64,000 nt of DNA, from contig JADZBH010000024.1 in NCBI GenBank assembly GCA_020852175.1, positions 1 to 64,000 on the forward strand, read 5' to 3'. This document shows positions 4,846 to 58,910 of this stretch, in pieces (positions within the stretch are counted from its first letter, which is position 1; each line of letters opens with the position of its first letter). The notes under the pieces were generated by a model that saw only the letters and a list, made by a program, of their open reading frames with translations, had not been told where the DNA came from and did no database searches. This DNA comes from Bryobacterales bacterium. Its GTDB lineage: Bacteria; Acidobacteriota; Terriglobia; Bryobacterales; Bryobacteraceae. A program made the translations under genes and the position numbers.

Positions 4846-5841
4846 CTACGGATTGAATGCCACCTCGACCGTCCTGCCCGCGTCGTGCAGGGTCAGGCGG
4901 AACGCCCGAGGGGACTTTGCGGTGTCCGAGGGGAAGAGGAAGCGGGCCGTCATGGATGTTCCCGGGTTGAGGTCGCCGTACCAGGAACGGTCGGTGGCCA
5001 GGTCGATGATATCGGGATACGCTTTGGTGACGCTGCCGTCAGCGGCCAGCAGTTCCGCGGTCACGTACTGCCAGCCCCATCGGGCGGGCAGCAGAAGGCG
5101 ATTGGTGACGGTGAGGTTGACGACGTACCGCCGGCCGGTCGCGGGCCGGCGCGCGCCTGCGACGATCTCGGGTTCACTCACCCCGTCCATCCGTATTTCC
5201 AGCGGGCCCAGGTCAAACGTTGCACCCCGGGCGGCTTGGACCGAATCTATTACGCCGATTCCATCCGGTGTAGCGAAGGTGGAACGGATCCGTCCGACCG
5301 AGGGAGCGAGGTCATACCAGGCGACCTTTCGCGGCGTTTCGTACATCAGGCCGAAACGGAAGTCCGTGAGGTCCGCGGGAATCCTCCATACGGCGGCGAA
5401 CTTCGCGGAATCTCCGGACTTAAGCTGCTTGCTGATGTACCCCAGCGTGGACGGATCGAAGGTTCCGGCGAACTTGAATTTGCCGGGCCCCTTATACGCT
5501 TGCCACAAGCGCAGCCCAATTGACTCCGTACTCGTCAGGCGGGCCGTGGACGTCTTCTCATGGTTTCGGATGGATCCTCGCAAGACGAGGAGTTTCTCTC
5601 CGGCTCGCGCAAAGACGTTCTCCTGGCGGTTGGGAAACACCAACGCCAATTCCGCCGAGTCGAGCGTCACTTCACGTTCACTCGCGAGTTCCATTTTTTC
5701 GTTACTGCCAATCACTCTCGATTCCGCGCCGATCACGTACGGAACTCCCAATTGCGCCGTGGCTTTGAATGGCCTTGGGCCAGCGGGAGTTTGTGCACTG
5801 GCAAGCGCCGCAAGAAAGCAAAGGACCAGACCGTCGCGCAT
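4846..5841 (-). CDS. Secreted protein with two similar beta-domains, function unknown
   Basis: 331 residues with a short signal peptide (LCFLAALASAQ). The rest appears to be two successive beta-rich modules, each with a 'LGPLEI/ELAL... V...G....V.L.V.N' style and a late LPFPSDT-like edge, resembling extracellular DUF4352-type domains, but the similarity is too weak for a firm assignment. It reads as a stand-alone gene convergent with its neighbour. Its upstream region (5842 onward) has no clear promoter that I can point to. I do not recognise a catalytic motif. Confidence 0.65.
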   Translation of the reverse strand: MRDGLVLCFLAALASAQTPAGPRPFKATAQLGVPYVIGAESRVIGSNEKMELASEREVTLDSAELALVFPNRQENVFARAGEKLLVLRGSIRNHEKTSTARLTSTESIGLRLWQAYKGPGKFKFAGTFDPSTLGYISKQLKSGDSAKFAAVWRIPADLTDFRFGLMYETPRKVAWYDLAPSVGRIRSTFATPDGIGVIDSVQAARGATFDLGPLEIRMDGVSEPEIVAGARRPATGRRYVVNLTVTNRLLLPARWGWQYVTAELLAADGSVTKAYPDIIDLATDRSWYGDLNPGTSMTARFLFPSDTAKSPRAFRLTLHDAGRTVEVAFNP

Positions 5842-5948
5842 GATTCACCTCGTCAGGGTTTAACGTACGACGGCCATCATCGCACGGAACGATGCGGGGC
5901 CCACGATGGAAAATGCACGGTTGTCAGGCCTGAAAAGTGCTAAGAGTG

Positions 5949-6058
5949 AAGGAGGTGGCTCAATTCCGCCGCCGCCGTTCCGCGGGTGCGGGATGCCGGT
6001 ACGAAGAGGCGCCACCCGGAGAAATCCCACGCAGGTTCAAGTCCTGCCCTCAGCACCA
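5949..6058 (+). pseudogene. Degenerate tRNA-Leu-like sequence
   Basis: The 3' half is an excellent tRNA: a perfect 5-bp T stem (GCAGG/CCTGC) around TTCAAGT, then CCTCAGC, discriminator A and encoded CCA, as in bacterial tRNA-Leu. The 5' half keeps only GAGGTGGC and AATT of the usual Leu acceptor/D arm. The first three acceptor bases do not pair with the 3' end, and no proper anticodon arm forms in the over-long middle (about 20 nt too many). I read it as a decayed tRNA rather than a working one. The surrounding 426-bp gene-free stretch (5842-6267) holds nothing else that I can support. Confidence 0.45.
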
Positions 6059-6267
6059 GTTTTTCAGTACCACGGCGGTCCACTTCCTCGTGGGGGCCGT
6101 TCCCGCATGTGCTGTCATTCCCTGCCGGACGCCCCAAGTCCTGGTACTCCGGTTCCAATTGGATAGGGAACAACCCCTGGTACCGGCTCGGGTTTCCTCT
6201 ACGTGTCTAAGTGCTTGCCCTGAAACGAACAGGGTACCTTCATCACAAGCGAAAATGAGACGATGGG

Positions 6268-8769
6268 GTGATTGCTCGAATTCCGCGGGGAATGTCTACT
6301 AGGACTATGCCTGCGGGGAACACGTCCGTCACACACAACGCGCACCTGCATGATCCCAGCCACGTCCTCACCTCGGCGCGTCTGCAACTCATCCTCCCCG
6401 TACTGTCGTTCGTCTACCTGGCAATCTGCCTGCAACAGATCATCGACTCGGCCACGGCTCAGCCCGACCGGCTCGCTCTGCTCACCGCCGCCATCAGCTT
6501 CCTGTGCTGGATCTTCCTTCGCCGCCGCCTGATCGACTCCTGCTCCGGGAACCAGATCGGCCTTGTCGTCGGCTTCCTCATCCTTTCCCAAAGCCTGTCG
6601 CGCTACTATTTCGTCGCCGACTCCTCGCAACTCACCGTGCTGTCCCTGCTCCTGCTGGGCAGTTCCTGGGTGCTTTCGACATTTGGAGGCTGGCTGAGCG
6701 TGGTCGCCATCCCCGCCGTGGGCGGTTGGGTGGCCGTCGCCTGCCTCAGCGAATCCGCACGCACGCAGTTCCACGGTTCTGTATTTCTAGGCGGCACCGC
6801 AGTCATGTCCGCCGCCGCGCTCTACCTTCGACTTTGGCAGCATCGCCGCGCCGGACGGATGCAACTCACCCCGCCGCAGTCGGAGGCGGAAGCCGCGCGC
6901 CACCGGCTTACGCACGCCATCGAGGGCAGCCAGGACGGTTTCTGGTACTGGGACCTCGACGCGAACACCTTCCACTGCTCACCCTCCTGGGCCATGATGC
7001 TCGGCTACACTCCGGGGGAACTGACCACGCACCCCGACGAGTGGCTCGACCGTGTCCATCCGGGATATCTGGCCGAGATGCAGAACCGGATCTCGCAGCA
7101 TCTGCTGGGCCATAGCGGCTGCTTCGGCAGCGAGCACCGTCTCCGTTGCAAGGACAACACCTACCTGTGGGTTTCGGCCCGCGCCACGGCCATCCGGGAT
7201 GCCTCCGGAAAGCCCACGGCACTGGCCGGTTCCCACCGCGACATCGGTTCATTGATCGAGGTGGAGAGCCGCGAAATCAACGACGCCTTCTCCGACCGTC
7301 TCACCAAGCTGCCCAACCGCGACCTACTGACCGCCCGGCTGGACCGCCTCATGGCGCAGAAGCGTCAGCAGGGCCAGGCCGCGCCCCTGTTCGCGCTCAT
7401 GTTCCTGGACCTGGACCGCTTCAAGCTGATCAACGACAGCATGGGCCATCTGGTGGGAGACCAGCTTCTGATCGCCGTCGCCGGGCGGCTGCGCAACTGC
7501 GCACGGCCGGGCGACATCGTGGCCCGCTTCGGCGGCGACGAGTTCGTCATTCTGTTGGAGCGTTTGCGCGATAAAGACGAGGCCGTCCGGGCCGGCTCCC
7601 GCATCCTGAACGCCCTGTCGACGCCATTTGAGATCAATGGCTCCGAGGTGGCGAGCGGCGGCAGCGTCGGGCTCGTGCTCAGCGACGAACCGGCCACGGA
7701 GGCGCAGGATCTGCTCCGCTACGCCGACATGGCCATGTACCACGCCAAGAGCCAGCGCAAAGGCCAGTTGCAAATCTACAACCAGAGCATGCAGGATGCC
7801 GTCACGCGCGCCCACGATTTGCAGAACGAACTCGCCCGCGCGCTCGACCGGCGGCAGCTTCTGCTTCACTTCCAGCCCTTCGTCGCCATCAACTCCGGCG
7901 AGATCCGCGGACTGGAAGCCCTGCTGCGCTGGCAGCGGAGACCCGATGAGATCATCCCGGCTGGAGACTTCGTACCGCTGGCCGAGGAGATGGGCATTCT
8001 CGACGAAATAGGCGACTGGGTGCTCCGCACCGCATGCCGTCAGAATGTCGAGTGGCAGAAGAGCGGGTTGCCTCCGGTGCGCGTGGCCGTGAATCTTTCC
8101 CCGCTGCAACTGCAGCAGCGCGACTTCTCGCGCCGTGTGGTCTCCATTCTGAAGGAAACCGGCCTCGATCCGCGCTGGCTCGAACTGGAGCTGACCGAAA
8201 CGGCGTTGATGAACAACCTCGACATCGCCCCGGCCACGCTCGCCGAGCTTGTGGCGCAAGGCATTCGCGTTTCCATCGACGATTTCGGCACCGGCTATTC
8301 GTCGCTCAACTACCTGCGCCAGTTCAGCTTCCAAACGCTCAAGATGGACCGCAGTTTCGTCGCCGAGATCACCAGCGACACCAAGGCCGCGGCAATCGCC
8401 AAGGGGCTCATCTCACTGGCGCACGATCTGGACCTCTCGGTGATCGCGGAAGGCGTCGAACGGAGCGACCAGAGGATCTTTCTCGCGGCGCAACGTTGCG
8501 ATCAGGTGCAGGGCTACCTCGCCAGCCGGCCGCTGCCCGCACTGACCGTGCCGGGACTGCTCAAACTCGGGCACGTGCCCTCGGGCCTCGGCCAATATGG
8601 CTGGAACGATACGGCCGAGCCCACCGTTTCAGGACAGTTTCTCAGCTTGGAGCGCGCGCTGGATTCAGCCGCGGAGGGATCGCGCAAGCCGAGCCCGCAG
8701 GCGTTGATTCAACTGGCGTCCCCGCAACGGCCGAGAATGCAGTCCGCCGCGACTCCGCTACCGCGTTAG
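6268..8769 (+). CDS. Membrane PAS-GGDEF-EAL cyclic-di-GMP enzyme
   Basis: 833 residues if the GTG at 6268 is used; ATGs at 6292 and 6307 are alternatives and no site has a convincing ribosome signal. About five hydrophobic segments (residues 35-200) form a membrane sensor region, then a PAS domain (about 215-335), a GGDEF domain with intact RFGGDEF near residue 420, and an EAL domain with EALLRW near 549, the DDFGTGYSS loop and a late QGYLASRPLP. Both cyclase (two GTP to c-di-GMP) and phosphodiesterase motifs look complete, so the enzyme could make or break c-di-GMP depending on the sensed signal. Its stop overlaps the convergent next gene by 4 bp. Confidence 0.9.
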   Translation: MIARIPRGMSTRTMPAGNTSVTHNAHLHDPSHVLTSARLQLILPVLSFVYLAICLQQIIDSATAQPDRLALLTAAISFLCWIFLRRRLIDSCSGNQIGLVVGFLILSQSLSRYYFVADSSQLTVLSLLLLGSSWVLSTFGGWLSVVAIPAVGGWVAVACLSESARTQFHGSVFLGGTAVMSAAALYLRLWQHRRAGRMQLTPPQSEAEAARHRLTHAIEGSQDGFWYWDLDANTFHCSPSWAMMLGYTPGELTTHPDEWLDRVHPGYLAEMQNRISQHLLGHSGCFGSEHRLRCKDNTYLWVSARATAIRDASGKPTALAGSHRDIGSLIEVESREINDAFSDRLTKLPNRDLLTARLDRLMAQKRQQGQAAPLFALMFLDLDRFKLINDSMGHLVGDQLLIAVAGRLRNCARPGDIVARFGGDEFVILLERLRDKDEAVRAGSRILNALSTPFEINGSEVASGGSVGLVLSDEPATEAQDLLRYADMAMYHAKSQRKGQLQIYNQSMQDAVTRAHDLQNELARALDRRQLLLHFQPFVAINSGEIRGLEALLRWQRRPDEIIPAGDFVPLAEEMGILDEIGDWVLRTACRQNVEWQKSGLPPVRVAVNLSPLQLQQRDFSRRVVSILKETGLDPRWLELELTETALMNNLDIAPATLAELVAQGIRVSIDDFGTGYSSLNYLRQFSFQTLKMDRSFVAEITSDTKAAAIAKGLISLAHDLDLSVIAEGVERSDQRIFLAAQRCDQVQGYLASRPLPALTVPGLLKLGHVPSGLGQYGWNDTAEPTVSGQFLSLERALDSAAEGSRKPSPQALIQLASPQRPRMQSAATPLPR

Positions 8770-15390: not shown

Positions 15391-15702
15391 CTAGTACCTC
15401 TTCAGCCGGCCGCGAATTCGCTTGGCCAGCTTCTCGATCTCCTCGGTCTTCCGGATCGAGGCCAGCGAAACGGTGTGGGCGCTGCCCTTTTCCAGCTCCA
15501 TCTTCAATTCCTCGGACAAACGCATCAGCTCGGCGGCGTCGTGCAGTGACTTTTCATGGTCATCCTTGAGGATCGCCTCGATCTGGGAGCGCTTGATCTT
15601 CGGCGGCGGATCTTCCTGCGGCTGCAGTTGCGCGAACAACAGCAGTCCGGCGGGCAGCGTAGCGCCCAAAGCGATCGTGGCTCGCAAAATCAAGGGTTTC
15701 AT
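15391..15702 (-). CDS. Small exported helical protein
   Basis: 103 residues: a hydrophobic signal segment (6-25), then a charged, mainly helical region rich in Lys and Glu (DDHEKSLHDAAELMRLSEE, IEKLAKRIRGRLKRY). I do not recognise it; similar small exported helical proteins are common in acidobacteria. It is the first gene of the leftward series leading into pyrR, and its start is only 24 bp from the divergent homoserine dehydrogenase gene, so its promoter must lie in that gap or inside hom. Confidence 0.65.
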   Translation of the reverse strand: MKPLILRATIALGATLPAGLLLFAQLQPQEDPPPKIKRSQIEAILKDDHEKSLHDAAELMRLSEELKMELEKGSAHTVSLASIRKTEEIEKLAKRIRGRLKRY

Positions 15703-15711
15703 GAGCTGCTG

Positions 15712-15720
15712 CTATCATAG
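15712..15720. promoter_or_regulatory. Symmetric bidirectional -10 element
   Basis: CTATCATAG is a palindrome around its centre. It offers TATCAT on the plus strand (15713-15718), 8 bp before hom's ATG, and TATGAT on the minus strand (15719-15714), 11 bp before the leftward ATG at 15702. The whole intergenic gap is 24 bp. The plus-strand start point would fall at or next to the ATG, implying a leaderless mRNA. Inferred from sequence only; no good -35 is seen. Confidence 0.45.
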
Positions 15721-15726
15721 CGGTTT

Positions 15727-17049
15727 ATGCTTCCCATGAATCCCGGCCGCGCCGTCCGCGTGGGTCTCGTCGGCCTGGGCAACGTTGGCACAGGAGCCAT
15801 GAGCATCCTTTCCGGCAACGCCGGACAAATCGAAGCCAAGCTCGGTTTTCCGCTGCTCGTACATTCTGTGTGCAGCCGTTCCGTGGCCGGCAAGGAACTA
15901 CCGGCCGGCATGGAGACCGTCCGCCGCACGGCCAACTGGCACGACGTGGTGAACGATCCCGAGGTGGACATCGTATGCGAACTGATCGGCGGCACGGGCG
16001 TGGCTCGCCAGGTGATCGACGCCGCCATAGCCGCCGGCAAGAGCGTGGTCACGGCGAACAAGGAACTGATGGCCCTGCACGGAGCGGACATCTGGGAGAA
16101 GGCGATCGCCGCCGGCATCAATCTCGCCATGGAGGCCAGCGTCGCCGGCGGCATTCCGATCCATACGGTCCTGCGGGAAGGCATCTCGGGTGACCGGATT
16201 CAGGCGCTATTCGGGATCCTGAACGGTACCAGCAACTACATTCTGACCTCGATCGAACGCCACGGCACGGCGTTTGAAACCGTGCTGGCCGAAGCGCAGC
16301 GCCTGGGTTATGCCGAGGCCGATCCGAGCGCCGACATCGACGGCTTCGACGCCCGGTCCAAGCTCGCGCTGCTCTCCGCGCTGGCCTTCGGCGAACGGAT
16401 CGCTCCCTCCGACATTTACACGGAAGGGATTCGCCGCTTGACGCCGCTCGACTTCCAGTACGCCCATCAGCTTGGCTATACGATTCGCCTGTTGTGCGCC
16501 GCCCGGCAGACGCCCGAGGGCCTGTTGCTCAGCGTGCGACCGGCGCTGATTCCTCGCGACACGATCCTGGCGGGCGTGCAGGGCGCCTATAACGCCATCT
16601 GGGTGCGTGGCGCGTACGGCGCCGATACGTTCTACTATGGCCGAGGCGCCGGTCCGCATCCAACTGGTGTGGCCGTGGTAAGCGATCTCATGCGCGTGGC
16701 CCGCGAAATTCGCAACGGCTCGCCCGAGCGTGTCTCGCCGTTTGCCCACGCACGGCTGGACGCCTACCAACCCATCCCCATCACGCTCCAGCGCCGTGCA
16801 TGGTATTTGCGCTTCCGCGTGCACGACCGTCCCGGCATTATCGCCGCGCTGGCCGGTATTCTCGCCGGAAAGAATGTGAGCCTGGACGCCGTCCTGCAAC
16901 TGCCCTCGGACACCAAAGAGAACCTGCCGTTCGTCATCACGCTGGAGACCACGCCGGAGGCCGATCTGCGCGACGCCGTGGAGCAGATGGCCGCGCTTGA
17001 TTTTCTGAAAGAGCCGCCGTTGGCGCTACCCATGGAGACCTCGCTATGA
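15727..17049 (+). CDS. hom: Homoserine dehydrogenase with C-terminal ACT domain
   Basis: 440 residues. It reduces aspartate semialdehyde to homoserine, on the route to threonine and methionine. The NAD(P)-binding GLGNVGTG is near residue 15; the catalytic-domain signatures ANKELMALHG, GILNGTSNYIL and ADPSADIDGFDARSKLALL are intact. An ACT domain (about 358-435, VHDRPGIIAALAGILAGKNVS) suggests feedback control by an amino acid, threonine in most relatives. Either the ATG at 15727 or that at 15736 could start it; the first would be nearly leaderless. The stop overlaps the next gene by 4 bp. Confidence 0.94.
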   Translation: MLPMNPGRAVRVGLVGLGNVGTGAMSILSGNAGQIEAKLGFPLLVHSVCSRSVAGKELPAGMETVRRTANWHDVVNDPEVDIVCELIGGTGVARQVIDAAIAAGKSVVTANKELMALHGADIWEKAIAAGINLAMEASVAGGIPIHTVLREGISGDRIQALFGILNGTSNYILTSIERHGTAFETVLAEAQRLGYAEADPSADIDGFDARSKLALLSALAFGERIAPSDIYTEGIRRLTPLDFQYAHQLGYTIRLLCAARQTPEGLLLSVRPALIPRDTILAGVQGAYNAIWVRGAYGADTFYYGRGAGPHPTGVAVVSDLMRVAREIRNGSPERVSPFAHARLDAYQPIPITLQRRAWYLRFRVHDRPGIIAALAGILAGKNVSLDAVLQLPSDTKENLPFVITLETTPEADLRDAVEQMAALDFLKEPPLALPMETSL

Positions 17050-32133: not shown

Positions 32134-32228
<95 letters not shown>

Positions 32229-32355: not shown

Positions 32356-33414
32356 TCACGCTGCCGCGTACGCGGCCATAGCCTGATCCATCTGCGCCTG
32401 GGTTGGATGCACGTATCGCATCACGCATCGCAGATTGCTGTGACCGAGAATAGCCGCGAGCGTGGTCAACGGCATTCCCTTCGCCGCCATCCGCGTGGCA
32501 AACGTATGCCGCAGGTCGTAGAGTCGGAAGCGTACCCCTGCGTCGATGCACGCCGCAGTATGCGTCCCGTTCATCGGGCTCGCGTGCGCACCCTTCTTGC
32601 GGCCGGGGAATAAGTATTCTGTCGACCGCCGTCCATCCGAGAGTCGGCAAAGGATCTCCGAGCAATCCCCTACAAGGCGGATCGTTCGGCGTGCCGCTCG
32701 CGATTTTCCATGTTGAACTGTGACCGACGGCACACTTCGCTGGACGTCGGCGGCGCGCAAGCTGAGAATCTCGTCGGGGCGCATTCCCGTGCCGAGCATG
32801 AGGCGGCTGAGATCGTAGAGGCGCGGCCTGGTGCGCGCGGCTCTTAGGTATGCGCTCTCTTCGTCATCGGTGAGTGGGTGGATCCGGATCGCGTCGCGGT
32901 CGCTCGGCACCTTGATTTCGAGAACCGGATTCCTCGCGGTCCAGCCTAAACGCATCGCGAACCGGAAGAAGCCCGACAGTGCGTGAAGATCATGACGAAC
33001 TGTAACCGGCTTCACGGTTCTTAGTCGCTCGACCTTGAACCATTCGAGATCAGCGGCGTCGATCGAGCAAACGAGTTTTCCTTCAAACGTCCGCTGCAAC
33101 GGCACGAAGCTGTCGACGATGCGGTCGTATGTCGTTGGACGCCGATACTCGGACTGAGCCCACTCCAAGTAGCGCCGTGCCGCGAACCCAAACTGAATTG
33201 CCGGTGGTCCATCAATCATGTCGGCAGTTAGGCCGGCACTGAGCTGGCGACGTACCTCGGCTTCCATCGCCTCGGCTGCGCCGCGGTGTTCCTCTGTGGC
33301 CTCGTAGCCGGTGCTGCCTGCGTACTCCCTGTGCTTGAGCTGGAATCGGTAGTGCCACTTCCCATTTCGTGGACGGAGCATCTTCCTCGTATCGGCACAG
33401 CGGAGTGTGCTCAT
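32356..33414 (-). CDS. int: Tyrosine-recombinase phage integrase
   Basis: 352 residues from the ATG at 33414; the frame extends to a TTG at 33450, inside a hairpin, which I disfavour. An N-terminal arm/core-binding region is followed by the catalytic domain with Arg in GTGMRPDEI, the RHTFATR box, HSNLRCVMRYVH and the Tyr nucleophile in RYVHPT. All catalytic residues (R-K-H-R-H-Y type) appear present. It lies beside tRNA-Ser and points at it, typical of prophages whose attachment site is the tRNA's 3' end. Confidence 0.92.
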   Translation of the reverse strand: MSTLRCADTRKMLRPRNGKWHYRFQLKHREYAGSTGYEATEEHRGAAEAMEAEVRRQLSAGLTADMIDGPPAIQFGFAARRYLEWAQSEYRRPTTYDRIVDSFVPLQRTFEGKLVCSIDAADLEWFKVERLRTVKPVTVRHDLHALSGFFRFAMRLGWTARNPVLEIKVPSDRDAIRIHPLTDDEESAYLRAARTRPRLYDLSRLMLGTGMRPDEILSLRAADVQRSVPSVTVQHGKSRAARRTIRLVGDCSEILCRLSDGRRSTEYLFPGRKKGAHASPMNGTHTAACIDAGVRFRLYDLRHTFATRMAAKGMPLTTLAAILGHSNLRCVMRYVHPTQAQMDQAMAAYAAA

Positions 33415-42089: not shown

Positions 42090-42247
42090 AAATGCCCAAG
42101 AAGCGTACGACTCTCAGCCTCGCCGGCATCGCCCTTTTGATCGCGGCCGTCTTCGCACCAATCAACTACCGCGAGGTACTTTCCACGGCCGGCCAAATCG
42201 TTCTGGAAGAGGCCAACGGCACTACCTACCCCGACGCGGAGAAGTAA
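42077..42247 (+). CDS. Small phage membrane protein
   Basis: 56 residues with one hydrophobic segment (LAGIALLIAAVFAPI). ATG with CAGGAG upstream; overlaps the preceding gene by 13 bp and shares TAATG with the portal gene. Unrecognised. Confidence 0.5.
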   Translation: MPSLKMPKKRTTLSLAGIALLIAAVFAPINYREVLSTAGQIVLEEANGTTYPDAEK

Positions 42248-44421: not shown

Positions 44422-44955
44422 ATGAGCGAAGCAACATACGATCCCCGCGATTTGTCGAACGGCCACTATCCGCATCTGCGCAAGGTGGCAATCGACGATC
44501 CCGAGTTCCTCGACATTCAGCGCTGGCTGACGTCGAAAGGCGCGCCGCCTTATAACCGGCTGTTCGTGCCCAAGGGTCTTGGTGTGGCAGGCGACAATCT
44601 CATCCTGCCAACCGAGATGCACTGGGAAAATGCGCACGGCGGTAAAGAGACTCTCAAACTCGACGCCGCGCTGGTATTCAATTTCCCGCACGTCGCGCTG
44701 GTGGAACTCAAGCACGCCTTCCACTTCGGCAACCCGAACATTGTGGAGATGTACCCTGGCCTGCGCAAGCCCGTCGAGTACGTTGTCCACTCGCCCATCG
44801 GCATTCCCTGGCCAGAGAAGGGCGCAAACGCCTTCCGGCCCTCCGAGTTCGACACGGAAGCCTATGGGGCGACGTACTTCGACGAAACCGGCGCGTACCG
44901 CAAGGATCGCTACGGCTGGGCCTTCATCTCATACCCGGTGTGGATCAAGCTTTAG
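44422..44955 (+). CDS. Phage protein, unknown
   Basis: 177 residues in the head region. AAGGAA precedes the ATG. Aromatic and Pro-rich, with mixed alpha/beta pattern (MHWENAHGGKETLKLDAALVFNF in part). No signal peptide. Probably a head or portal accessory protein by position. Confidence 0.5.
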   Translation: MSEATYDPRDLSNGHYPHLRKVAIDDPEFLDIQRWLTSKGAPPYNRLFVPKGLGVAGDNLILPTEMHWENAHGGKETLKLDAALVFNFPHVALVELKHAFHFGNPNIVEMYPGLRKPVEYVVHSPIGIPWPEKGANAFRPSEFDTEAYGATYFDETGAYRKDRYGWAFISYPVWIKL

Positions 44956-48132: not shown

Positions 48133-49065
48133 ATGATGATTCGAGCTCAGTTTACCGACACCTTCCTGCTGTCGATGCTGCCCGCCTTGGACGAAGTCAT
48201 TTTCAACAAGTTCGGCTCCATCGCCCCGCAGTACCCCAAGGTTTTCCGCGTCCTGGATTCGTCCCGCTCGTTTGAGCAGACCTCCGAGATCGCGGGTCTC
48301 GGCCTGCCCTCCGTGATCCCCGAGGGCGCGGACATGGTCTACGACCAGGGCGTTCAGGGGTTCGACAAGACCTACTTGCACACGCAGTGGGGTCTTGGCT
48401 TCAAAGTCTCCCGGATCATGGTCGACGACGACCGTTTCGGGGTGATCAAGAAGATCGCAACGGACCTCGGCCGGTCCATGCGCGAGGCAATCGAACTCGA
48501 CGCGGCCGGCGACCTCAATAACGGCTTCACGGGCGGTGCGACGGCCGGTCCGGACGGCGTGGCCTTGTTCTCCACTGCTCACCCGCTGGTGAAGTCCGGA
48601 GGCTTCGGCTCCAACACTCTCGCCGTCGCTGCCGATCTCGACATTGCCTCGTTGGAGTTGGCTCTCACCGACTTCCGGCTGATGACCGACGACACGGGCA
48701 AGAAGATCCGGCTCTCGCCGGAAATGCTCGTGATCCCGCCCCAGCTCGAGTTCGTTGCAAGCGAGCTGCTGAAAGGCACGATGCGCAGCGACACTGCCAA
48801 CAACACCATCAACGCGTTCAAGCACCGCGTCGGCATGGGGGCCTTCCAGGACGTCCACGTCTACGAGTACCTCACCGATCCCGACGCCTGGTTCATCCGC
48901 TCGGCCAAGGAAGAGACGGAACTGCGCTTCTACTGGCGCGAGCGGCCTTCCACCGTCCATGACGTGCATTTCGATTCCCGCACGCTCAAGACCGCTTCCT
49001 GGATGCGCTTCAGCCACGGCTGGAGCGGCTGGCGCGGCTGGTACGGCGTCCCTGGCGGCGCTTAA
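48133..49065 (+). CDS. Major capsid protein
   Basis: 310 residues with a strong ribosome site (AGAGGAG). N-terminal helices, then the HK97-fold style seen in Mu gpT-like shells: VSRIMVDDDRFGVIKKIATDLGRSMREAIELDA, DGVALFSTAHP, SPEMLVIPPQLEFVASELL, VHVYEYLTDPDAWFI. A hairpin follows the gene, as is common behind capsid genes. Confidence 0.85.
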   Translation: MMIRAQFTDTFLLSMLPALDEVIFNKFGSIAPQYPKVFRVLDSSRSFEQTSEIAGLGLPSVIPEGADMVYDQGVQGFDKTYLHTQWGLGFKVSRIMVDDDRFGVIKKIATDLGRSMREAIELDAAGDLNNGFTGGATAGPDGVALFSTAHPLVKSGGFGSNTLAVAADLDIASLELALTDFRLMTDDTGKKIRLSPEMLVIPPQLEFVASELLKGTMRSDTANNTINAFKHRVGMGAFQDVHVYEYLTDPDAWFIRSAKEETELRFYWRERPSTVHDVHFDSRTLKTASWMRFSHGWSGWRGWYGVPGGA

Positions 49066-50083: not shown

Positions 50084-50971
50084 ATGACCTTCGGACAACT
50101 TCGCTTCGCTCTGTCGAAGTTCGCGCCGGGTGTCGATCCCGATCTCCTCGACCAGTGGATCAACGACCGCTATGAGGCGCTGTGGAACTTTCACCACTGG
50201 CTCGGCCGAGAACGCGACGCCACGCTGAACACGGTCGCTCCGTATAGTGCCGGGACGGTCGATCTGGTCAATGGCGCCACGTCCGTCGCGGGTACCGCGA
50301 CAACCTTCACCGCCGCCATGACCGGCCGGCGAATCCGCATCGGAGGACGCAGCGAGTGGTACACCTTCACGTACGTATCGGCGGCTTCTGGCACCTTGGA
50401 TCGCGCCTTCGAGGGGGACACCGGCACCGGCCTCGCTTACGAGATCTTCCAGAACGTCTACGACCTCGCCGCCGATCTGGAGCACCTCCTCCCAATCAAG
50501 ACAACCCACCGCCCCGGCCAGCTCTCGCTCTGGACGCAGGAGAGGCTGGATACTGAGGCTCCCTCGCGGCCGGCTCGCGGCACGCCCGAGATCTACGCCT
50601 ACGCGCCAACGGGAACGAACCCGGACGGCTCCACGCTCTACCGCGTCGAGCTGTACCCGATTCCCGATGCCGCGCGCGGCCTCCCCTACAAGTACCGCCA
50701 GCGTTTCACACGCCTCACCAACACGTCGACGATCCTGCCGGATTGGATCTCGACCGCCTGCCTAAAGGCTGGCGTGCAATCCGACATCTGCGGCGCGGCG
50801 AAGGACTACAACGGCAAGGCGACCTATCAGGCCGATCATGACCGCGAGCGCGCCTCGATGCTGCGCGAAGAAGCGCGGCGGCGTCCGAGCAAACGGCTGC
50901 TGCCGAGTGACGGCTACGCGCGGACACACCTCGACTCCGGTGTGAGAAAGGTCCCGTTCAACTTCTCATGA
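50084..50971 (+). CDS. Head-to-tail adaptor-like protein
   Basis: 295 residues. The opening MTFGQLRFALSKFAPGVDPDLLDQWINDRYEALWN is typical of phage adaptor/connector proteins that dock on the portal (gp4/gp6 type helices); a beta domain is inserted (60-130), and the C-terminus is basic. It overlaps the spike gene by ATGA. Confidence 0.6.
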   Translation: MTFGQLRFALSKFAPGVDPDLLDQWINDRYEALWNFHHWLGRERDATLNTVAPYSAGTVDLVNGATSVAGTATTFTAAMTGRRIRIGGRSEWYTFTYVSAASGTLDRAFEGDTGTGLAYEIFQNVYDLAADLEHLLPIKTTHRPGQLSLWTQERLDTEAPSRPARGTPEIYAYAPTGTNPDGSTLYRVELYPIPDAARGLPYKYRQRFTRLTNTSTILPDWISTACLKAGVQSDICGAAKDYNGKATYQADHDRERASMLREEARRRPSKRLLPSDGYARTHLDSGVRKVPFNFS

Positions 50972-52845
50972 AAACCGCAATCTTCCTTGTGGCGGCTGCC
51001 CTCACCGTGGCGTCGGTTCGTGGCCAAAACACGGCCAAGTTCCCCGGTGCCGTACCTGGGCACTCGGATCTCTTCGTCGCCAAGAATCGGGCACAGACCA
51101 CACTTACCGGGGCCATCTCTTCGACATCCGCGACGACGATCAACGTCACGTCGTCGGGGGACTTCGACGACACCGGCCTGGTGACCATCGACAACGAGAT
51201 TATTGCGGTCTGCGCGAAGTCGGGAACGACCTTCACCGTAGGCCGCTCCAGTTGTCCGAACGCCGACGGCCGCGGCTTCGACGGTTCGATTGCGGCCACG
51301 CATGCGAACGGAGCCGTGGTGCAAGCTCGCATGACGGCGTGGCACCACAACCAGCTCGCCGCCGAGGCCATGGCCATCGCCACCAAGCTCAATTACGAGC
51401 TCGTCAGCGTGCGCGATTACGGCGCCGTGGCCGATGGAGTGACGGACGACCGCGCGGCTATTCAAAGCGCGCTGACTGCGGCCTCGGGCAAGTGCATCTA
51501 CTTCCCTGGCGGGCATTACATCATCTCGGCGTTCGTCAATCTGAAGGTCTCGAACTCCTGCCTGCTTGGCGGGCCGTCCGTGCGCATTGAAAACACCTAT
51601 CCCGGATTCGACGGCTACCAGAACGACGGCATTCGCATCGGCACGGCCTCGGCGCTCGATGGCGACACCGGAACCGAGATCAATATCTCAGACGTTTACG
51701 TTTCCGGCTTCAACTTCATCAACGGTTCGACGCGCATGGGCATTTGGGCGGTCTACGCGCGGCGCGTCACGATCGAGAACATCCAAGGCGACGGCAAGGC
51801 TGTGATTGCCGTGGGGAACGACGCCGACGATGAGTGCGAGCACGTCATTATCCGCAACATCACCCGCACGGGAGTCTCCGCAACGGACTGGTATACGGCG
51901 GGCATATTCAACACGCAATACTTTGTGCTCGACGGCGTGCTCTCGCCCTACGCCGTGACGGGCGGCAACGCCATCGCCGTGGGCAGAGGCGCTTACGGAA
52001 CGATCACCAACGTCGTGGCCGATCAGAACGACAATCCCGGCGCTCCCTGCATCACGCTGGAGGATTCCAACCGCATCCAGGTCTCGAACTTCGTGCTGCG
52101 CAATTGCAGCTCGGGGGTGACGGCCTATTTTGGCAACGTCTCTTACATCGACAGCTACCACCTCATCGGGCCGGGCATGATCGAATCCAGCGACCGGGCG
52201 CTGAACATCTATACCCGGCAGAACACCATCACCGGCGTGAAGACGTTCGGGAACACAACCTCCCTGGTGATTAACTCCGACGCGCAATCGAACTATGCCA
52301 TCGGGAACACCTTCAGCGAAGGCACCATCACCGATACTGTGCCGCTGGCAGGTTCCTGGAAGTGGCAGGCCAACATCGGCCTTTTCGAAAACTACTACGC
52401 GGCCAACGTGGGCATCGGTCAAACGAATCCCGAATATCCGCTGGTCGTCGCCTCGGGCACGCAAGCCCGCGCGGCACTCCGCGGCGGCGTCTCCTCGGCC
52501 TCACCCACCGAACAAGGACAGTTCTTCTTCGGGGCCAATGTGCGCGGGGGCTCGGAAGCAAACAAGATCATCGCCATGATTTCCGGCGTGTCGCTCGACA
52601 ACACGGCGACGACAGCCGGTTACCTCGCTTTTGCGCCTCGGAACCTCAGCAATAACCTGCCTTACAGCGTCTACATGCGCGAATGGGGTGGCCTCACTCT
52701 CGCGGGCAACCTTGCCATTCCTACCTGCAACTCGTCAACGCGCGGAACCATCTTCGGGACCTCGGGCGGCGTGGGGGTGAAGGACACACTTCAGGTCTGT
52801 GCCAAGGATTCCGGGGACGCCTACGCCTGGAGGACGATCTATTGA
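50968..52845 (+). CDS. Tail-spike-like beta-helix protein with signal peptide
   Basis: 625 residues. The start MKTAIFLVAAALTVASVRGQ looks like a Sec signal peptide with a GQ cleavage site, unusual for a virion protein. After a head-binding-type region (30-140) comes the pectate-lyase-3 motif VSVRDYGAVADGVTDDRAAI (near 145) and a right-handed parallel beta-helix to about 480, then a C-terminal module. Such spikes bind and cut host polysaccharide. It lies between two adaptor genes and has ATGA/TTGA overlaps with both. Confidence 0.75.
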   Translation: MKTAIFLVAAALTVASVRGQNTAKFPGAVPGHSDLFVAKNRAQTTLTGAISSTSATTINVTSSGDFDDTGLVTIDNEIIAVCAKSGTTFTVGRSSCPNADGRGFDGSIAATHANGAVVQARMTAWHHNQLAAEAMAIATKLNYELVSVRDYGAVADGVTDDRAAIQSALTAASGKCIYFPGGHYIISAFVNLKVSNSCLLGGPSVRIENTYPGFDGYQNDGIRIGTASALDGDTGTEINISDVYVSGFNFINGSTRMGIWAVYARRVTIENIQGDGKAVIAVGNDADDECEHVIIRNITRTGVSATDWYTAGIFNTQYFVLDGVLSPYAVTGGNAIAVGRGAYGTITNVVADQNDNPGAPCITLEDSNRIQVSNFVLRNCSSGVTAYFGNVSYIDSYHLIGPGMIESSDRALNIYTRQNTITGVKTFGNTTSLVINSDAQSNYAIGNTFSEGTITDTVPLAGSWKWQANIGLFENYYAANVGIGQTNPEYPLVVASGTQARAALRGGVSSASPTEQGQFFFGANVRGGSEANKIIAMISGVSLDNTATTAGYLAFAPRNLSNNLPYSVYMREWGGLTLAGNLAIPTCNSSTRGTIFGTSGGVGVKDTLQVCAKDSGDAYAWRTIY

Positions 52846-53663
52846 CCCTCGGCCAGCTCAAGGCACGAACCTTCCAGCGGCTCGATGCGCCCGCCGATGG
52901 CACCGGCTACTACTCAGTGGCCGACGTCGTCGCTGCGCTCAACGATGCGCTGCTTCTGTTCGTGTATCTGACGCTTTGCCTCGAAGAGACGCGCTCCCTG
53001 GAACTCGCTCCGAACACCCGGTTCTATCGCTTGCTCGACCGCTGGGACGATTTCATTCTGCCGTTGCGCGTGCGCCACACCAATCTGAACCCTGGCGACC
53101 AGGACGCGCTTTTCGATCAGGAGTTGTTCGATTCGTACCTCTTCGGAGAGGGCAGCATTCCCGGCTGGGCTGCGAGCCTCATCACGAAGCTCCGTCCCGC
53201 ACGGCTCCAGGACCTCCGCGCGCTCGACCGTGCTTGGATGACGGCGGCGGGAACCCCTGACCGCTACGCCTTCGCCGGCGTCGACGTGATGACCTTCGAC
53301 CGCATCCCCTCGACCGTGGGGCAGACGGTTTACATCACCATGGCGCGGGCGGCCGCGCCGCTTGCGGGCGACGCTGATGCTCCCGAGATCCCGGCGTCGC
53401 ACCATGAGGCGCTCATCGACTTCGCCGTGTTCTGGCTGCGCGCGAAAGAAGGCGGCTCGGAGTTCCTCTCCGCGCTCGGCGGCCTGGCTCGCTTCTTCGA
53501 TTCGGCCCGCCAGTTGGCGGCATTCGTCCGCGCGCGATCGCTTGCGCTGCGCTACGACCACGTTCCCTCCGAACTGGAGCGGTTCGACCTCTCGCGGCTG
53601 CTGAAAGTTCGCACCGATCTGCCGCCTCACCGAAGGGAGGTCGCGCCATCGCTATCGAAGTAG
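52842..53663 (+). CDS. Phage adaptor-like protein
   Basis: 273 residues, TTG start inside TTGA, with TGGAGGA 8 nt upstream. The opening (TLGQLKARTFQRLDAP...SVADVVAALNDALLLFVYLTL) resembles the preceding adaptor, suggesting an old duplication in the connector complex. The C-terminus is basic. Confidence 0.6.
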   Translation: MTLGQLKARTFQRLDAPADGTGYYSVADVVAALNDALLLFVYLTLCLEETRSLELAPNTRFYRLLDRWDDFILPLRVRHTNLNPGDQDALFDQELFDSYLFGEGSIPGWAASLITKLRPARLQDLRALDRAWMTAAGTPDRYAFAGVDVMTFDRIPSTVGQTVYITMARAAAPLAGDADAPEIPASHHEALIDFAVFWLRAKEGGSEFLSALGGLARFFDSARQLAAFVRARSLALRYDHVPSELERFDLSRLLKVRTDLPPHRREVAPSLSK

Positions 53664-54259
53664 ATGCTGTCATCGGCGCCATTGTCCCGATGCTCAATTC
53701 GGACACGGCGGCGAACCTCACGCACTGGACGGAAACCGAGTTGTACGAGTTCGCCGACGAGAATCTGAAGCGCCTGGCGCGGACGGCGGCCGTGTATGTG
53801 GACCGCTCCACAACCGAAAATGCGCCAGCCGATAGCGCGCATCCTCTTGCGGCCACCGACATCGCCGTGATCGACGTGGGATGGGACGGCGTGGCTCTAT
53901 CGCCTTCGAACATGCGCGAGTTGGAAGCGCTCGACCAAAGCTGGGAAGCGGCCACCCCGGATACGCCATCGCACTTCGCGACCGACTTCCTGGGCTTCGG
54001 AACCGTGCGCCTGTACCCTCCGCCTGCGGCACCAGGAACGCTCGACCTCATCACCATCCAGACGCCGCCCGAAGTGTCGTCGGGGTCGCCCGACGTGCGC
54101 GCGCCGCTTCCGTTCGCCGTGTGGCTTCGCGCGCGGCTGCTGGTGGATGCGCGCGGGCGGGAAGGCGACGGTGCGATGCCAGAAGTCGCGCAGCGCCTGG
54201 GCGAGCTGGCTTCGATCATTGAGCGCGTCACGGTGGCCTACTACGGGGGGTCGCAGTAG
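53648..54259 (+). CDS. Phage structural protein with a probable ATC start
   Basis: 203 residues if translation begins at ATC 53648, which has AAGGGAGG 7 nt upstream and gives an N-terminus (M)AIEVDAVIGAIVPMLNSDT. The first ATG in frame (53690) has no ribosome site and would cut off a helix. The protein is mostly helical with LYPPPAAPGTLDLITIQTPP. It shares one base with the next gene. Probably a tail or neck protein by context. Confidence 0.6.
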   Translation: MAIEVDAVIGAIVPMLNSDTAANLTHWTETELYEFADENLKRLARTAAVYVDRSTTENAPADSAHPLAATDIAVIDVGWDGVALSPSNMRELEALDQSWEAATPDTPSHFATDFLGFGTVRLYPPPAAPGTLDLITIQTPPEVSSGSPDVRAPLPFAVWLRARLLVDARGREGDGAMPEVAQRLGELASIIERVTVAYYGGSQ

Positions 54260-56526
54260 TGGCCTACAAGCGGCAAGAGTACGAGATTCGCTTCGGCGGC
54301 GTGTCGCTGCTGGGTCCAGGCGACAAGATCGCCGGCGACGACGCGCTGCAGATCCAGAATTTCCGCGTGGACCGCTACGGCCATCTGCGGGGGCGGAAGG
54401 GTTCCTCCACCGCGTCCGGCCAGTGCGCGTTCGCCAGCGGTTCGGCGGCCGAGATTCACACGGCGCGCTTCCTCCTGGGGCGGCGTTATTGGGGCTACAC
54501 CATTGGCGGCGGCGGCCGTCTGGAGCGCAACACGACGTTCATCGCCAGCGGCTTTGCCGACGTGCAGCCCCTTGGCCTGGCTGCGATGCGCAATTGGGTC
54601 TGGATCATGAACCAGGCCGCGGGCAAGCAACTCCGCGACACTGGCGTCGGAACGACGCTCTACCTCTGGCAGCCAGCCGCGCCGACGACAACCGCCATCG
54701 GCATCGGCGCGTTCGGTTCCGGCTCGATCAAAGGCAAATACAAGTACTACGTCACCTACGGCACGGCCAATGCCCCCGGCGCTGAGGACTTTGAATCGAA
54801 CCCCTCTCCGGCAACCGCTGAAGTGGATGCGACGGCCGGCGTCGACTACATCGGCCTCACCAACCTCCCCGTGTCGGCGGACCCACAGGTAAACTGCCGG
54901 CACATCTACCGCATTGGAACGGGTGGCGGAAGCACGCTGAGCGCGGCCACGCGCGTGGCAACGATTTACAACAACGCACTCACGACGCATGACGACTACC
55001 AAACGGACGTGGAGGTGGCGGCGGGATCGGGCGAGACGATTGCGGCGGGCCCGCCGCTGGTGAAGCAGGGCGCGGCCGTGCTGATGGAAACCGACCACGA
55101 CCCGGCGCCGCTCGCCAATGGCGTCGTCGCCTACATGAACCGGCTGGTGGTGTTTCGCGATTCGGTCAACCCGCGCCGAATCTACTACACCCCGGCTTTC
55201 AAGCCCTGGTACTTCCGTGGCTCGAACAACGGCACGGTAGGGGATTGGTTCGACGTTGACGACGACGTGGTGACGGTCACGGTGAAGCCCCGGATGCTCT
55301 ACATCTACACCAAGAGCTCGATCTGGCGCATAGTCGGCGACATCTCCGAGAATCCGCCCGAGCTGCAGCGCAGCGACTACGGCATCGTCGGCCCGCGCGC
55401 GGTCGCTTCGATGGGCCACACCGACTTGTTTCTCTCGAAAGAGGGGCTGTGCGAGTTCAACGGGGACTTCGCCAAGCTCGTATCTCCGAAGCTCGACCCG
55501 GTCTTTCACGACGACGCCTTTTTCATCGCCCGCGGCGTGGCCATCCAGCACAACCCGATGGCCGACAGTTCGGCCAACCTTGCCACGGCCTCGCTTGCCG
55601 TCCGCTCCGGACGCGTCTGGATGAGCTTCGTCGATACCGCCAGCGTGCGGCAAACCTGGCAGTACGAAGTTGCAACCCAGCGCTGGGTTCGCGATTCGCG
55701 CCGCCTGTTCAATTTCCTCGACGAAGGCCAGGGCGGCGACCTGATTCTCTGCTTCCACCAGGCCAAGAGCGGAGCGGGCTACGTCGGCGCGCACTATGCC
55801 GAGGACGCGGCCACCGATGGCTCGGCCGTGGGCAGCAACTACGATGCCGCGTTCCATTCGGCGTACCTCGACCAGGGCTTTCCCGAAAGCGAGAAGGTCT
55901 ATGAGGACATCACCATCGACGCCGATACGGGCGGTCTGAACATGACCGTGAAGGTCTACACCAACAATGGCGAGCTGGCCGGCGACGAGTACAACATCGG
56001 CACGATCAACACCTCCACCCGCCAGCCGGTGACATTCCCGCTGAACACTACCACCGGGCCCGGAATCCGCGGGCGCAATCTCGCCGTGCGGCTGGAGTGC
56101 ACCAACACAGGGCAAACGATCCAGGTCTTTCGGATCTTCGGCCACTACTACGTGGAACCGCGCAAGGCCAAATCCTTCGACACCGGGGAAACCGACCTCA
56201 GAAGTCCGTGGGTCAAGGAGTTCGACCAGATCCTCCTCAAAATCAAGTCCACCGCCAACGTGGATTGGAAGCTCTATACGGAACTGCCCTCGGGCACGAT
56301 GGCCGTGGCGGCCAGTGGAACGATCACGACAACGACAACGGAAAAGCCCATCGTGCTGCCGATCACTGCTGGTGTCCACGGGCGTCTAATGCGCCTCACG
56401 CTGTACTGCGCCTCCGGAGTCTTCCAGCTCTACGACGACGTGCAAATCTTGGTCCGCCCAACGCCTGAGTACTTCAACGGAGCCAATGGCGAGAAGTTTG
56501 TCACGCTCCCGCAAAGCCTGAACTAG
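54259..56526 (+). CDS. Large tail/virion structural protein
   Basis: 755 residues, GTG start. Beta-rich with WD/propeller-like stretches (LWQPAAPTTTAIGIGAFG; VNPRRIYYTPAF; YIYTKSSIWRIVGDIS; MGHTDLFLSKEGLCEFNGD), as in propeller-containing tail tube or nozzle proteins of podoviruses. The C-terminal 200 residues form another beta sandwich. Probably the tail nozzle or knob, by content and place. Confidence 0.55.
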   Translation: MAYKRQEYEIRFGGVSLLGPGDKIAGDDALQIQNFRVDRYGHLRGRKGSSTASGQCAFASGSAAEIHTARFLLGRRYWGYTIGGGGRLERNTTFIASGFADVQPLGLAAMRNWVWIMNQAAGKQLRDTGVGTTLYLWQPAAPTTTAIGIGAFGSGSIKGKYKYYVTYGTANAPGAEDFESNPSPATAEVDATAGVDYIGLTNLPVSADPQVNCRHIYRIGTGGGSTLSAATRVATIYNNALTTHDDYQTDVEVAAGSGETIAAGPPLVKQGAAVLMETDHDPAPLANGVVAYMNRLVVFRDSVNPRRIYYTPAFKPWYFRGSNNGTVGDWFDVDDDVVTVTVKPRMLYIYTKSSIWRIVGDISENPPELQRSDYGIVGPRAVASMGHTDLFLSKEGLCEFNGDFAKLVSPKLDPVFHDDAFFIARGVAIQHNPMADSSANLATASLAVRSGRVWMSFVDTASVRQTWQYEVATQRWVRDSRRLFNFLDEGQGGDLILCFHQAKSGAGYVGAHYAEDAATDGSAVGSNYDAAFHSAYLDQGFPESEKVYEDITIDADTGGLNMTVKVYTNNGELAGDEYNIGTINTSTRQPVTFPLNTTTGPGIRGRNLAVRLECTNTGQTIQVFRIFGHYYVEPRKAKSFDTGETDLRSPWVKEFDQILLKIKSTANVDWKLYTELPSGTMAVAASGTITTTTTEKPIVLPITAGVHGRLMRLTLYCASGVFQLYDDVQILVRPTPEYFNGANGEKFVTLPQSLN

Positions 56527-56911: not shown

Positions 56912-57547
56912 GTGCGTACCTGGCTGCTGAAGCGCGTGCAGCTCCATGTGCAGGCGGCGGCTACTTGCACCTTTACCCTGCGCACGAATCTACCGGGCGG
57001 CGAGGTCGTGGATCGCGTCGTACGGAACTTCGCTGCAACCACCGGGCGTGAGGTGGTCGATCTGTATCTACCGGGCGACACCCGGGCGCAGCTCGTTCAG
57101 TACAGCATCGTGAGCGCGGGCCTGGTTCGCCTGTTCGGCGGGCAAGTGTGGGCGCGCGCGCTCGATGGCGGGGATTGGGCCTGGCTGCCCCTGCCTGGGC
57201 TTCCTGGCCAGCTCGTCGAGTGGGCCGACATTGCGCTCCCGATGCCGGCCGCGCCGAAGGCGTGGGCCGATGTCGCGCTCCCGATTCCGGCAGCACCGAA
57301 GGACTGGACAGACCTGGGCTTACCGATTCCCCCACAGCCGAAGGACTTCACCGATCTGCCATTGAGCATTCCGCAACCCTCAAAGCTGTTTGTCGACCTA
57401 GCGCTGCCGATTCCAGAGCCGCCAAAGACGTGGGGCGACACAGCGCTTCCGATTCCGCCGCCACCGAAGGCTTGGGCAGACGCCAAGATTCCCATGCGCG
57501 AAACGCCGGACCTGGCGGCGTGGGTGGGGGTTCCCGTCGATGAGTAG
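56912..57547 (+). CDS. Phage protein with seven 14-residue repeats
   Basis: 211 residues, GTG start with GAGGGA. Residues 1-100 are a beta domain similar to the preceding protein. Residues 104-201 are seven repeats of the type W/F-x-D-x-x-L-P-I-P-x-x-P-K-x (WADIALPMPAAPKA, WTDLGLPIPPQPKD, FVDLALPIPEPPKT and so on). Pro-rich repeats of this kind make extended rods or binding strips. It overlaps the fibre gene by 8 bp. Confidence 0.7.
   Translation: MRTWLLKRVQLHVQAAATCTFTLRTNLPGGEVVDRVVRNFAATTGREVVDLYLPGDTRAQLVQYSIVSAGLVRLFGGQVWARALDGGDWAWLPLPGLPGQLVEWADIALPMPAAPKAWADVALPIPAAPKDWTDLGLPIPPQPKDFTDLPLSIPQPSKLFVDLALPIPEPPKTWGDTALPIPPPPKAWADAKIPMRETPDLAAWVGVPVDE
57221..57514 (+). repeat. 42-bp tandem repeat, seven units
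   Basis: Seven head-to-tail 42-bp units encode the 14-residue Pro-rich repeats. Units have diverged at the DNA level, so the array is not freshly expanded, yet the spacing is exact. Confidence 0.75.
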
Positions 57548-58910
57548 GCTCAACGCTCGGAATAGCGTTGCCGACGTTCCGTCCGAACTGCCCTTCGGGC
57601 CGGAACTCATTCGCATCATCAACGACCGTCTGAGGCGCATCGCGGAGGCAGGGGATAGCACGCGCTCGCAGGTATCGACGCTGATTGAATCGGTGAAAAC
57701 CGTTGCCGCAGCGAACCTTGTGAGCGGGCCCCACACGAACCGTCTGCTGCTCGCCGGCGAGGGCACAGGTGTTGCGTTCTACGAGACGGATCGGACCGTG
57801 CTCTACGTCGATGGTTTCTATGCGGGCGGCGTCCATGTGGAAGTGCTCGCCAACATTCCGACCGACGTGAGCACGAACGACGTGGGGTTTCTGTTTTGGG
57901 CGACCGACGTCGAGATCGTTTGGCGGTGGGATGGTGCCGTTTGGAAATATCTCAAAGGCACGCACCGGGACGTGTACGCGAACCTCCCGACGCTTACCGT
58001 GAACGATGCCGGATATCTGTACTACGCGACGGATCGGCTCATCACCTGGCGCTGGGACGGGGCATTCTGGATCTACGTCGATGGCACCCACTTCGACACG
58101 GCCGCCAGCATTCCAACCCTCACCGCAGACGACGCGGGCTACCTGTTCGTGGAGACGGATCGCGGGATTTCGTGGCGCTGGAACGGCGCGGCCTGGCTCT
58201 ATGTGAGCGGCATCCACCGCGATGCGCTCGCCAATTTGCCGGGAGGCTTCGGCGCGGCGGAAACCGGGTATCTGTTCTATGCCACTGACTATCACCACAC
58301 GCTGCTGTGGAACTCCGCATCGTGGCAGTGGGCGCCGGGGGAAACTCCCTCCGGTCAAATCTCCTTCTGGACAGAGAACCCTGGCACCGGCTGGCGCTTC
58401 TGCAACGGCGGCACCGCTACGCGGCTGAAATCGGACGGCACCACACAACTCGTTTCGATCCCCGATGTCAGTGCCGACTGCTTTGTGAAGGGCGGCATCG
58501 CCTACACCGGTTCGGCGGTCGCGGCCGTCGCGCCTGGACTTTCCGGTGCACTGGCCAATGAGTCGTCGCACACGCACACGACGAACGTGAGCGGCGTCAC
58601 GGTGAGCACGGACTCCGGCCACACGCACAGCATCGACCACGATCACGCCGTCGTGAACACTTCAGGCGGCGCCCTGGTGAATATTCAGGCGGGCGCAGGC
58701 GCCGTTGCCGCGACATGGGATCACACGCACACGGTTGACCTTCCCAACCACACTGCCAATTCCGGCTCGGGCGGCTCACACGCGCACACGCTGAGCGGCT
58801 CGCCGGCGAGCGGCGGGGGAAGCGCGCACACACACGGTCTGGGGACGCTGGCGGTAGACGCAACCGGCGCGCCGAAGCACATGGCTTTGCTTCCCTACTA
58901 CCGGCTCTAA
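57540..58910 (+). CDS. Tail fibre with 42-residue repeats and His-rich collar
   Basis: 456 residues. Helical N-terminus (1-60, virion attachment); then three exact-length 42-residue repeats (114-239) of the pattern DAGYLYYATDRLITWRWDGA, plus a half copy, as found in phage fibre and spike shafts; then a tail-collar-type C-terminus with many HxH pairs (SHTHTTN, GHTHSIDHDH, DHTHTVDLPNHT, SHAHTLSG, AHTHGLG). In T4-type needles such His pairs bind iron. The closing MALLPYYRL is the collar-domain end. It likely recognises the host surface. Confidence 0.75.
   Translation: MSRLNARNSVADVPSELPFGPELIRIINDRLRRIAEAGDSTRSQVSTLIESVKTVAAANLVSGPHTNRLLLAGEGTGVAFYETDRTVLYVDGFYAGGVHVEVLANIPTDVSTNDVGFLFWATDVEIVWRWDGAVWKYLKGTHRDVYANLPTLTVNDAGYLYYATDRLITWRWDGAFWIYVDGTHFDTAASIPTLTADDAGYLFVETDRGISWRWNGAAWLYVSGIHRDALANLPGGFGAAETGYLFYATDYHHTLLWNSASWQWAPGETPSGQISFWTENPGTGWRFCNGGTATRLKSDGTTQLVSIPDVSADCFVKGGIAYTGSAVAAVAPGLSGALANESSHTHTTNVSGVTVSTDSGHTHSIDHDHAVVNTSGGALVNIQAGAGAVAATWDHTHTVDLPNHTANSGSGGSHAHTLSGSPASGGGSAHTHGLGTLAVDATGAPKHMALLPYYRL

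Follow-up and report, generated by a model that had tools for sequence, protein, structure and literature searches.

The spike gene and its setting

The window analysed here, a stretch of 64,000 bases from a Bryobacterales bacterium, belongs to a contig (C24) of 74,361 bases in a genome of 5.0 Mb. A podovirus-like prophage probably starts in it beside a tRNA-Ser gene with a tyrosine integrase and extends to the contig end. The prophage holds 38 called genes, in a call set without the adaptor gene at 52842. Near its right end, a 4051-aa open frame (61118-73273) extends beyond position 64000. The features discussed below are collected in Table 1.

The gene of main interest encodes a beta-helix spike. 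Its strand, coordinates and length agree with the initial annotation, which had also placed the gene in a tail cluster. This location was borne out by Pfam and PHROGs: the spike gene is surrounded by a portal-like gene at 42247 (a weak Pfam match, below the cut-off), the capsid gene, two SU10-type adaptor genes and tail-type genes. It does not stand apart from the structural operon, as a moron would. The ATG of the spike gene (50968-50970) overlaps the TGA stop codon of adA (50969-50971), and the SU10-type adaptor gene that follows probably starts at TTG 52842, in which case it overlaps the spike stop codon.

A typical Sec signal peptide, also part of the initial annotation, was found to open the spike (MKTAIFLVAAALTVASVRG, followed by QNT), with K2, an uncharged hydrophobic core and V-R-G before the Q at the predicted cleavage site 19/20. 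Signals were called throughout with our own rule-based scorer rather than SignalP; a basic N-end is one of its conditions, and a threshold of 9 was used in the main tests. The spike scores 10.45, and by this rule-based prediction the n-region, h-region and signal peptidase I site of a Sec-secreted protein are all present. Two of the 38 called prophage genes score, the other encoding a 77-aa protein at 73270 (9.43). The maximum 19-residue hydropathy of the spike signal (1.44) is low for a membrane anchor; that of the mature part is 1.14. A true start after residue 20, which had been named as a possible objection, is unlikely, since before the next in-frame ATG (Met122) only GTG codons 8 and 14 offer an alternative. 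The overlap of the ATG with the upstream stop codon also speaks against such a start. A homologue in a related phage (L118|13) aligns residue 1 to residue 1 with the spike and has a signal of its own.

Table 1. Positions of the prophage genes and of the spike segments considered in the text.
Feature	Position	Strand	Basis or remark
Tyrosine integrase, probable left prophage end	32359..33381	-	PF00589; adjoins tRNA-Ser 32134-32226
Major capsid protein	48133..49065	+	PF25209, phrog_371; query for collecting related phages
adA (our own label), upstream adaptor-like gene	50084..50971	+	conserved in L117, L118
Signal-bearing beta-helix spike gene, 625 aa	50968..52845	+	ORF, Pfam, PHROGs
Predicted Sec signal peptide, residues 1-19, cut before Gln20	50968..51024	+	score 10.45; hydropathy
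N-terminal phage structural module, residues 22-155, Cys82-Cys96 pair	51031..51432	+	profiles A1, A2
Beta-helix (pectate-lyase-like) domain, residues 139-456	51382..52335	+	PF12708; host-protein identity
C-terminal 41-residue Cys-pair module, residues 585-625	52720..52842	+	common to host-region exoproteins
SU10-type adaptor gene	52842..53663	+	PF24175; homologues begin at matching residue
Second SU10-type adaptor gene	53690..54259	+	PF24175
phrog_511-family virion protein ("TAIL")	54259..56526	+	PHROG match; homologue in L118
Signal-less gene, second candidate receptor binder	57540..58910	+	weak tail PHROG matches; L118 homologue

Domains of the spike and their relatives

The central part of the spike was matched by PF12708 (residues 146-384, E=3.6e-13), and the PHROG matches of the protein are to tail and tail-spike families. 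A PDB search gave seven matches, mostly around residues 63-202, with one epimerase over residues 147-479. No match was found in a single-sequence scan of IMG/VR with the whole spike, and an AlphaFold model built from five rows reached a mean pLDDT of only 36.

The nearest relatives found of the helix come from chromosomes of the same genus and are proteins of the secreted type. Pectate-lyase-like proteins in three genomes (G000:C41, G001, G002) have the same beta-helix, at 47-50% identity over about 320 residues, and the copy in G000 has a predicted signal; unlike the spike, they carry no phage module. Host homologues outside a phage context, which the initial annotation had proposed to look for, were found: the neighbourhoods seen in G000 and G001 are without phage genes. 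The gene that precedes the host helix gene in both genomes encodes 1019 aa and is presumably receptor-like. Loci L034:9351-10430 and L036:9562-10614, from two genomes of the genus, show this setting: a host beta-helix gene behind a receptor-like gene, among the closest relatives of the phage helix that were found. Residues 585-625 of the spike match exoproteins of host regions, several with signals (L049, L052 and L055 by the called start, L050 by another start, L054 not at all); some of these exoproteins lie near genes that we take to be glycosyltransferase-like. The initial suggestion that the spike was acquired from a host exoprotein is thus supported for the helix and the last 41 residues. 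It does not extend easily to the signal, which did not simply accompany the helix, since a phage module lies between them and since signal and module precede different C-terminal parts in other phages.

This N-terminal module occurs in two forms. The form without a signal matches a 'baseplate wedge initiator' of cyanophage and a 'constituent protein' of Roseobacter phage CRP-901; among phage records, 112 were matched by it, one of them covered at at least 80%. For the spike itself, a tblastn search of phage records with its N-terminus gave no match, and the 61 pattern matches of the N-module profile in IMG/VR included no confirmed relative. A profile of the module had matches at E 1e-3 in 105 of the family's 237 genomes, many of them short and inside large proteins. 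With a profile built from the signal-bearing members, matches came from 75 of 399 genomes in the class and from 15 of 396 in the phylum, mostly over short stretches. One described family, phrog_11548 (a phage pectate lyase filed as moron), aligns with spike residues 6-177 (E=3.3e-7). Its alignment reaches the N-terminus, and the N-terminus of the spike may already be present in this family.

Counts of the two forms rest on part of the matches within the family. In the 18 loci tested, signal-less module proteins begin directly at the module; this set includes one locus with an unlikely start 76 codons upstream (L056), and L048, which has no usable start, was left out. A signal precedes the module by the called start in six loci (the window, L037, L117, L118, L119 and L120) and in L179 if an upstream GTG is used, giving seven signal-bearing N-module proteins; in L132 the module is present and the signal absent. 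A FastTree of 22 modules separated the seven signal-bearing proteins and L132 from 14 signal-less ones (support 0.97), although midpoint rooting places L120 across the split and several of the nodes are weakly supported. The spike homologue of L118 lies between adA and SU10-type adaptor genes, and that of L117 between two SU10-type genes. A more distant genome (G436) has four consecutive signal-bearing genes in the tail cluster of a prophage-like region (L120:9283-16394). In L119, a signal-bearing 402-aa gene (5762-6967) lies soon after a coat-like gene, outside the spike position. An NxNF motif was tried as a docking module and set aside, with three matches in the gene set and none in phage records for an inexact query.

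Signal peptides in other phages

Related phages were collected independently of the spike, by capsid (A3) and adaptor (A4) alignments, which gave 59 loci (47 + 8 from IMG/VR and 4 from genomes). Both alignments were built from phages with signal-bearing spikes, so the loci represent that clade. Seventeen loci with distant capsids (L158-L174) were kept apart and nine judged to be near-duplicates were dropped, leaving 33. Genes of at least 140 aa were scored. Slot genes were defined as those without a conserved label between the capsid gene and three genes beyond TAIL. Conserved genes were those for capsid, adaptors, tail, portal and packaging together with other homologues of window genes, and included the portal-like gene at 42247 and a 177-aa gene at 44422.

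When alternative starts were allowed in the 33 loci, signals were found on 25 of 86 slot genes and on 1 of 201 conserved genes (Fisher p=1e-13). The single conserved positive arises from an internal start, and the one among 55 other genes is lipoprotein-like. By called starts only, the counts were 19/86, 0/201 and 0/55 (p=2e-11). At least one signal-bearing slot gene occurs in 18 of the 29 loci that have a slot gene (15 by called starts); in the remaining 11 none was found. The picture was the same at scorer thresholds of 8 and 10, and all 42 loci, with the dropped near-duplicates restored, gave 36/103 slot, 1/256 conserved and 2/79 other genes with alternative starts, in 24 of 37 loci. Signals are not confined to the spike slot. 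Among genes shorter than 140 aa, 2/29 slot, 0/11 conserved and 5/121 other genes score by called starts. Of 57 post-capsid genes in the loci with distant capsids, 4 score. Small scoring genes were also seen upstream of the capsid gene (L136 gene 4, L129 gene 5, L141/L143 gene 10, L152 gene 8, L182 gene 6); the one in L136, a dropped duplicate, is 157 aa long and scores 13.0. One IMG/VR contig with a distant capsid, perhaps a phage of another phylum, has two post-capsid signal-bearing genes (L161:12874-15477 and 15486-16274; 868 and 263 aa), the larger without a Pfam match.

Pfam matched 8 of 29 signal-bearing phage proteins, two of them below the cut-off, and left the remainder unrecognised. 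The surface-type domains recognised were PF12708 (L118, L037), Beta_helix (L153, L179), Laminin_G_3 (L146) and fn3 (L132); CBM_5_12 was also among the matches. PHROGs assigned 3 of 10 such proteins to tail or structural families and one to a family of unknown function. The junction [AGSVTLC]x[AGS] followed by Q was present in 27 of 32 signal-bearing phage proteins, 12 of 28 signal-bearing host proteins and 13 of 194 background genes, the phage list being hand-picked and including gp13 of Tunturi 1, the host set having a threshold of 9.5, and the sets not being strictly matched. Gln as the first mature residue is frequent in the phage set, more so than among the host proteins. Cysteine makes up 1.50% of signal-bearing slot proteins, against 0.79% and 0.65% in the comparisons, and the spike has an odd number of cysteines (nine). 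Cysteine content was dropped as a main argument for disulfides, because signal-less beta-helix spikes of other phages are equally rich (0.7-2.4%). A Cys-Trp module pattern proved too rare to be used (3 of 45 signal-bearing phage proteins, with 0.7 expected, and 4 of 42 host proteins).

Phages with homologous capsids served as controls. Five of 34 records had a capsid match (Roseobacter CRP-901, Alcaligenes QDWS535, Planktothrix Pag-Yong1, Caulobacter RW and one Manatee Spring genome). None of their 92 listed CDS reached 9 by annotated starts, one standing at 8.97; with alternative starts, none of 68 CDS of at least 140 aa scored, and one 112-aa gene did. Beta-helix spikes of isolated phages, 13 of which were matched among 81 phage records, were all without a signal, alternative starts included.

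A parallel was found in phages of cultured Acidobacteriota. Tunturi 1 has been described as a podovirus of Tunturiibacter by electron microscopy (PMC11924767). The available part of that paper names proteomics as future work only, and no mention of signal peptides was found in it. Among 36 of its 106 CDS that were tested, gp12, gp14, gp16 and gp17 score and gp13 lies just under the threshold (8.91); the one further scorer is a 127-aa lipoprotein-like gene. The five gp proteins, four large and one small, range from 149 to 1190 aa. The annotations include tail spike for gp14 (pectin lyase in Tunturi 2), virion structural protein for gp17 and, in Tunturi 2, tail fiber for gp13; matches to domain families were found in gp17 only. 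Tunturi 2 has the same five signal genes with equal or better scores. Between the two phages, the signal of gp17 differs by three amino acids with its score kept or improved, and the other four signals vary too little to be informative. The genes gp12-gp17 of Tunturi 1 and 2 (PP887698, PP885685) thus resemble the spike of the window phage as spike-region genes of Acidobacteriota podoviruses with Sec-type signals. For the Tunturi 1 proteins, a BLAST search of our gene set at E 1e-4 gave no match. No signal was found among 30 tested genes of Tunturi 3, and in Tunturi 4 one of 30 scores, beside the lysis genes, the structural genes being without a signal. These two phages rule out that the feature is general for phages of the host phylum.

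Possible roles of a spike with a predicted export signal

The tailspikes of P22-type podoviruses have a pectate-lyase-like beta-helix. The spike shares several features of such tailspikes: a PF12708 helix that follows an N-terminal part, matches to spike PHROGs and a gene within the structural cluster. It differs from the 13 known beta-helix spikes tested, which start without a signal, by the Sec-type signal before its N-module. The reading to which an even chance is given here is that the spike is a receptor-binding or polysaccharide-degrading protein of a podovirus-type phage of Acidobacteriota that is exported via the host Sec pathway. Export is a well-supported prediction, as a typical signal is found again in the corresponding slot of related phages; for the exported depolymerase of the initial annotation, it is this predicted export that finds support. 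The spike would also be present in virions, where the signal-less product of 57540-58910 could be the receptor binder instead.

The spike would be made together with the structural operon, as the overlapping genes suggest, exported through Sec and cleaved, by prediction, before Gln20. It could then fold in the periplasm, perhaps with disulfides, although this step is the more speculative one. At lysis, the N-terminal module might dock the spike onto short-tailed heads passing through the opened envelope, and the beta-helix would bind or cut surface polysaccharide in the next infection. The same arrangement is seen again on variable spike-slot genes of related phages. P22 particles without tailspikes take up purified tailspike in vitro, which makes late attachment of a spike plausible. 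A wider proposal, in which Sec precursors are matured and stockpiled in the periplasm and attached only at lysis in several Acidobacteriota phages of different types, is put forward more tentatively, at somewhat less than an even chance.

Alternatively, the spike might be exported before lysis and never join a particle, acting as a secreted, moron-like enzyme or surface protein that loosens host polysaccharide, aids the release of particles or blocks re-infection. This is rather unlikely. Such a protein would account for export without a new assembly route, and the predicted signal of the helix relative in G000, the filing of phrog_11548 as a moron pectate lyase and the existence of a signal-less gene with tail matches all agree with it. 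Against it stand the overlaps of the gene with its neighbours in the structural operon, the module between signal and helix that is shared with phage structural proteins, and the spike region of Tunturi 1, where one of the five signal genes is annotated as tail spike and another as virion structural protein. The moron status suggested initially is doubtful on the same grounds, and across the group signal-bearing genes occupy this slot.

The similarity of the beta-helix and C-terminus to host proteins is also what would be seen if the signal were a relic of gene capture, brought in with a segment of a host exoprotein and now neutral or unused in a spike assembled in the cytoplasm. Signals on many diverged slot proteins and the equal or better gp17 signal after three changes make this improbable, and neutrality is itself unlikely, since a working Sec signal would drain the cytoplasmic pool of spike. 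It is even less probable that the hydrophobic segment stays uncleaved, as a membrane anchor or as a hydrophobic docking plug within the virion. Some segments are strongly hydrophobic (1.97 in L037, 2.29 in L180) and cleavage is a prediction, but the core in the spike is short, the N-ends are basic (a condition of the scorer), 27 of 32 proteins have a small residue before Q at the junction, and signal-less homologues begin where the mature part would.

Assembly of the virion proteins of tailed phages is generally considered to take place in the cytoplasm. Filamentous phage coat proteins are virion proteins with Sec signals; unlike the particles of a tailed, lysing phage, these phages are extruded through the envelope. 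Signals on exported phage proteins have been described for SAR endolysins (PMC3765740) and Lom (PMC12309495), which resemble the spike in this respect but are, in the sections available, lysis and host-membrane proteins. Two Bacteroides phages have been described with unspecified signal-bearing genes (PMC5723332), which the available text leaves unnamed and does not establish as spikes. No report of Sec signals on tail spikes was found in the available portions of the open-licence literature, including PMC5723332, PMC12309495, PMC3765740, PMC11924767 and PMC3426561.

For annotation, genes of this kind resemble the host secretome or morons. Tunturi 1, with its cultured host (Tunturiibacter psychrotolerans X5P2), makes the question of spike export directly testable. 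A phage group whose spike-slot genes carry Sec-type signals, with almost none on its conserved genes, would either bring an envelope step into the assembly of tailed phages or point to many spike-enzymes that phages secrete.
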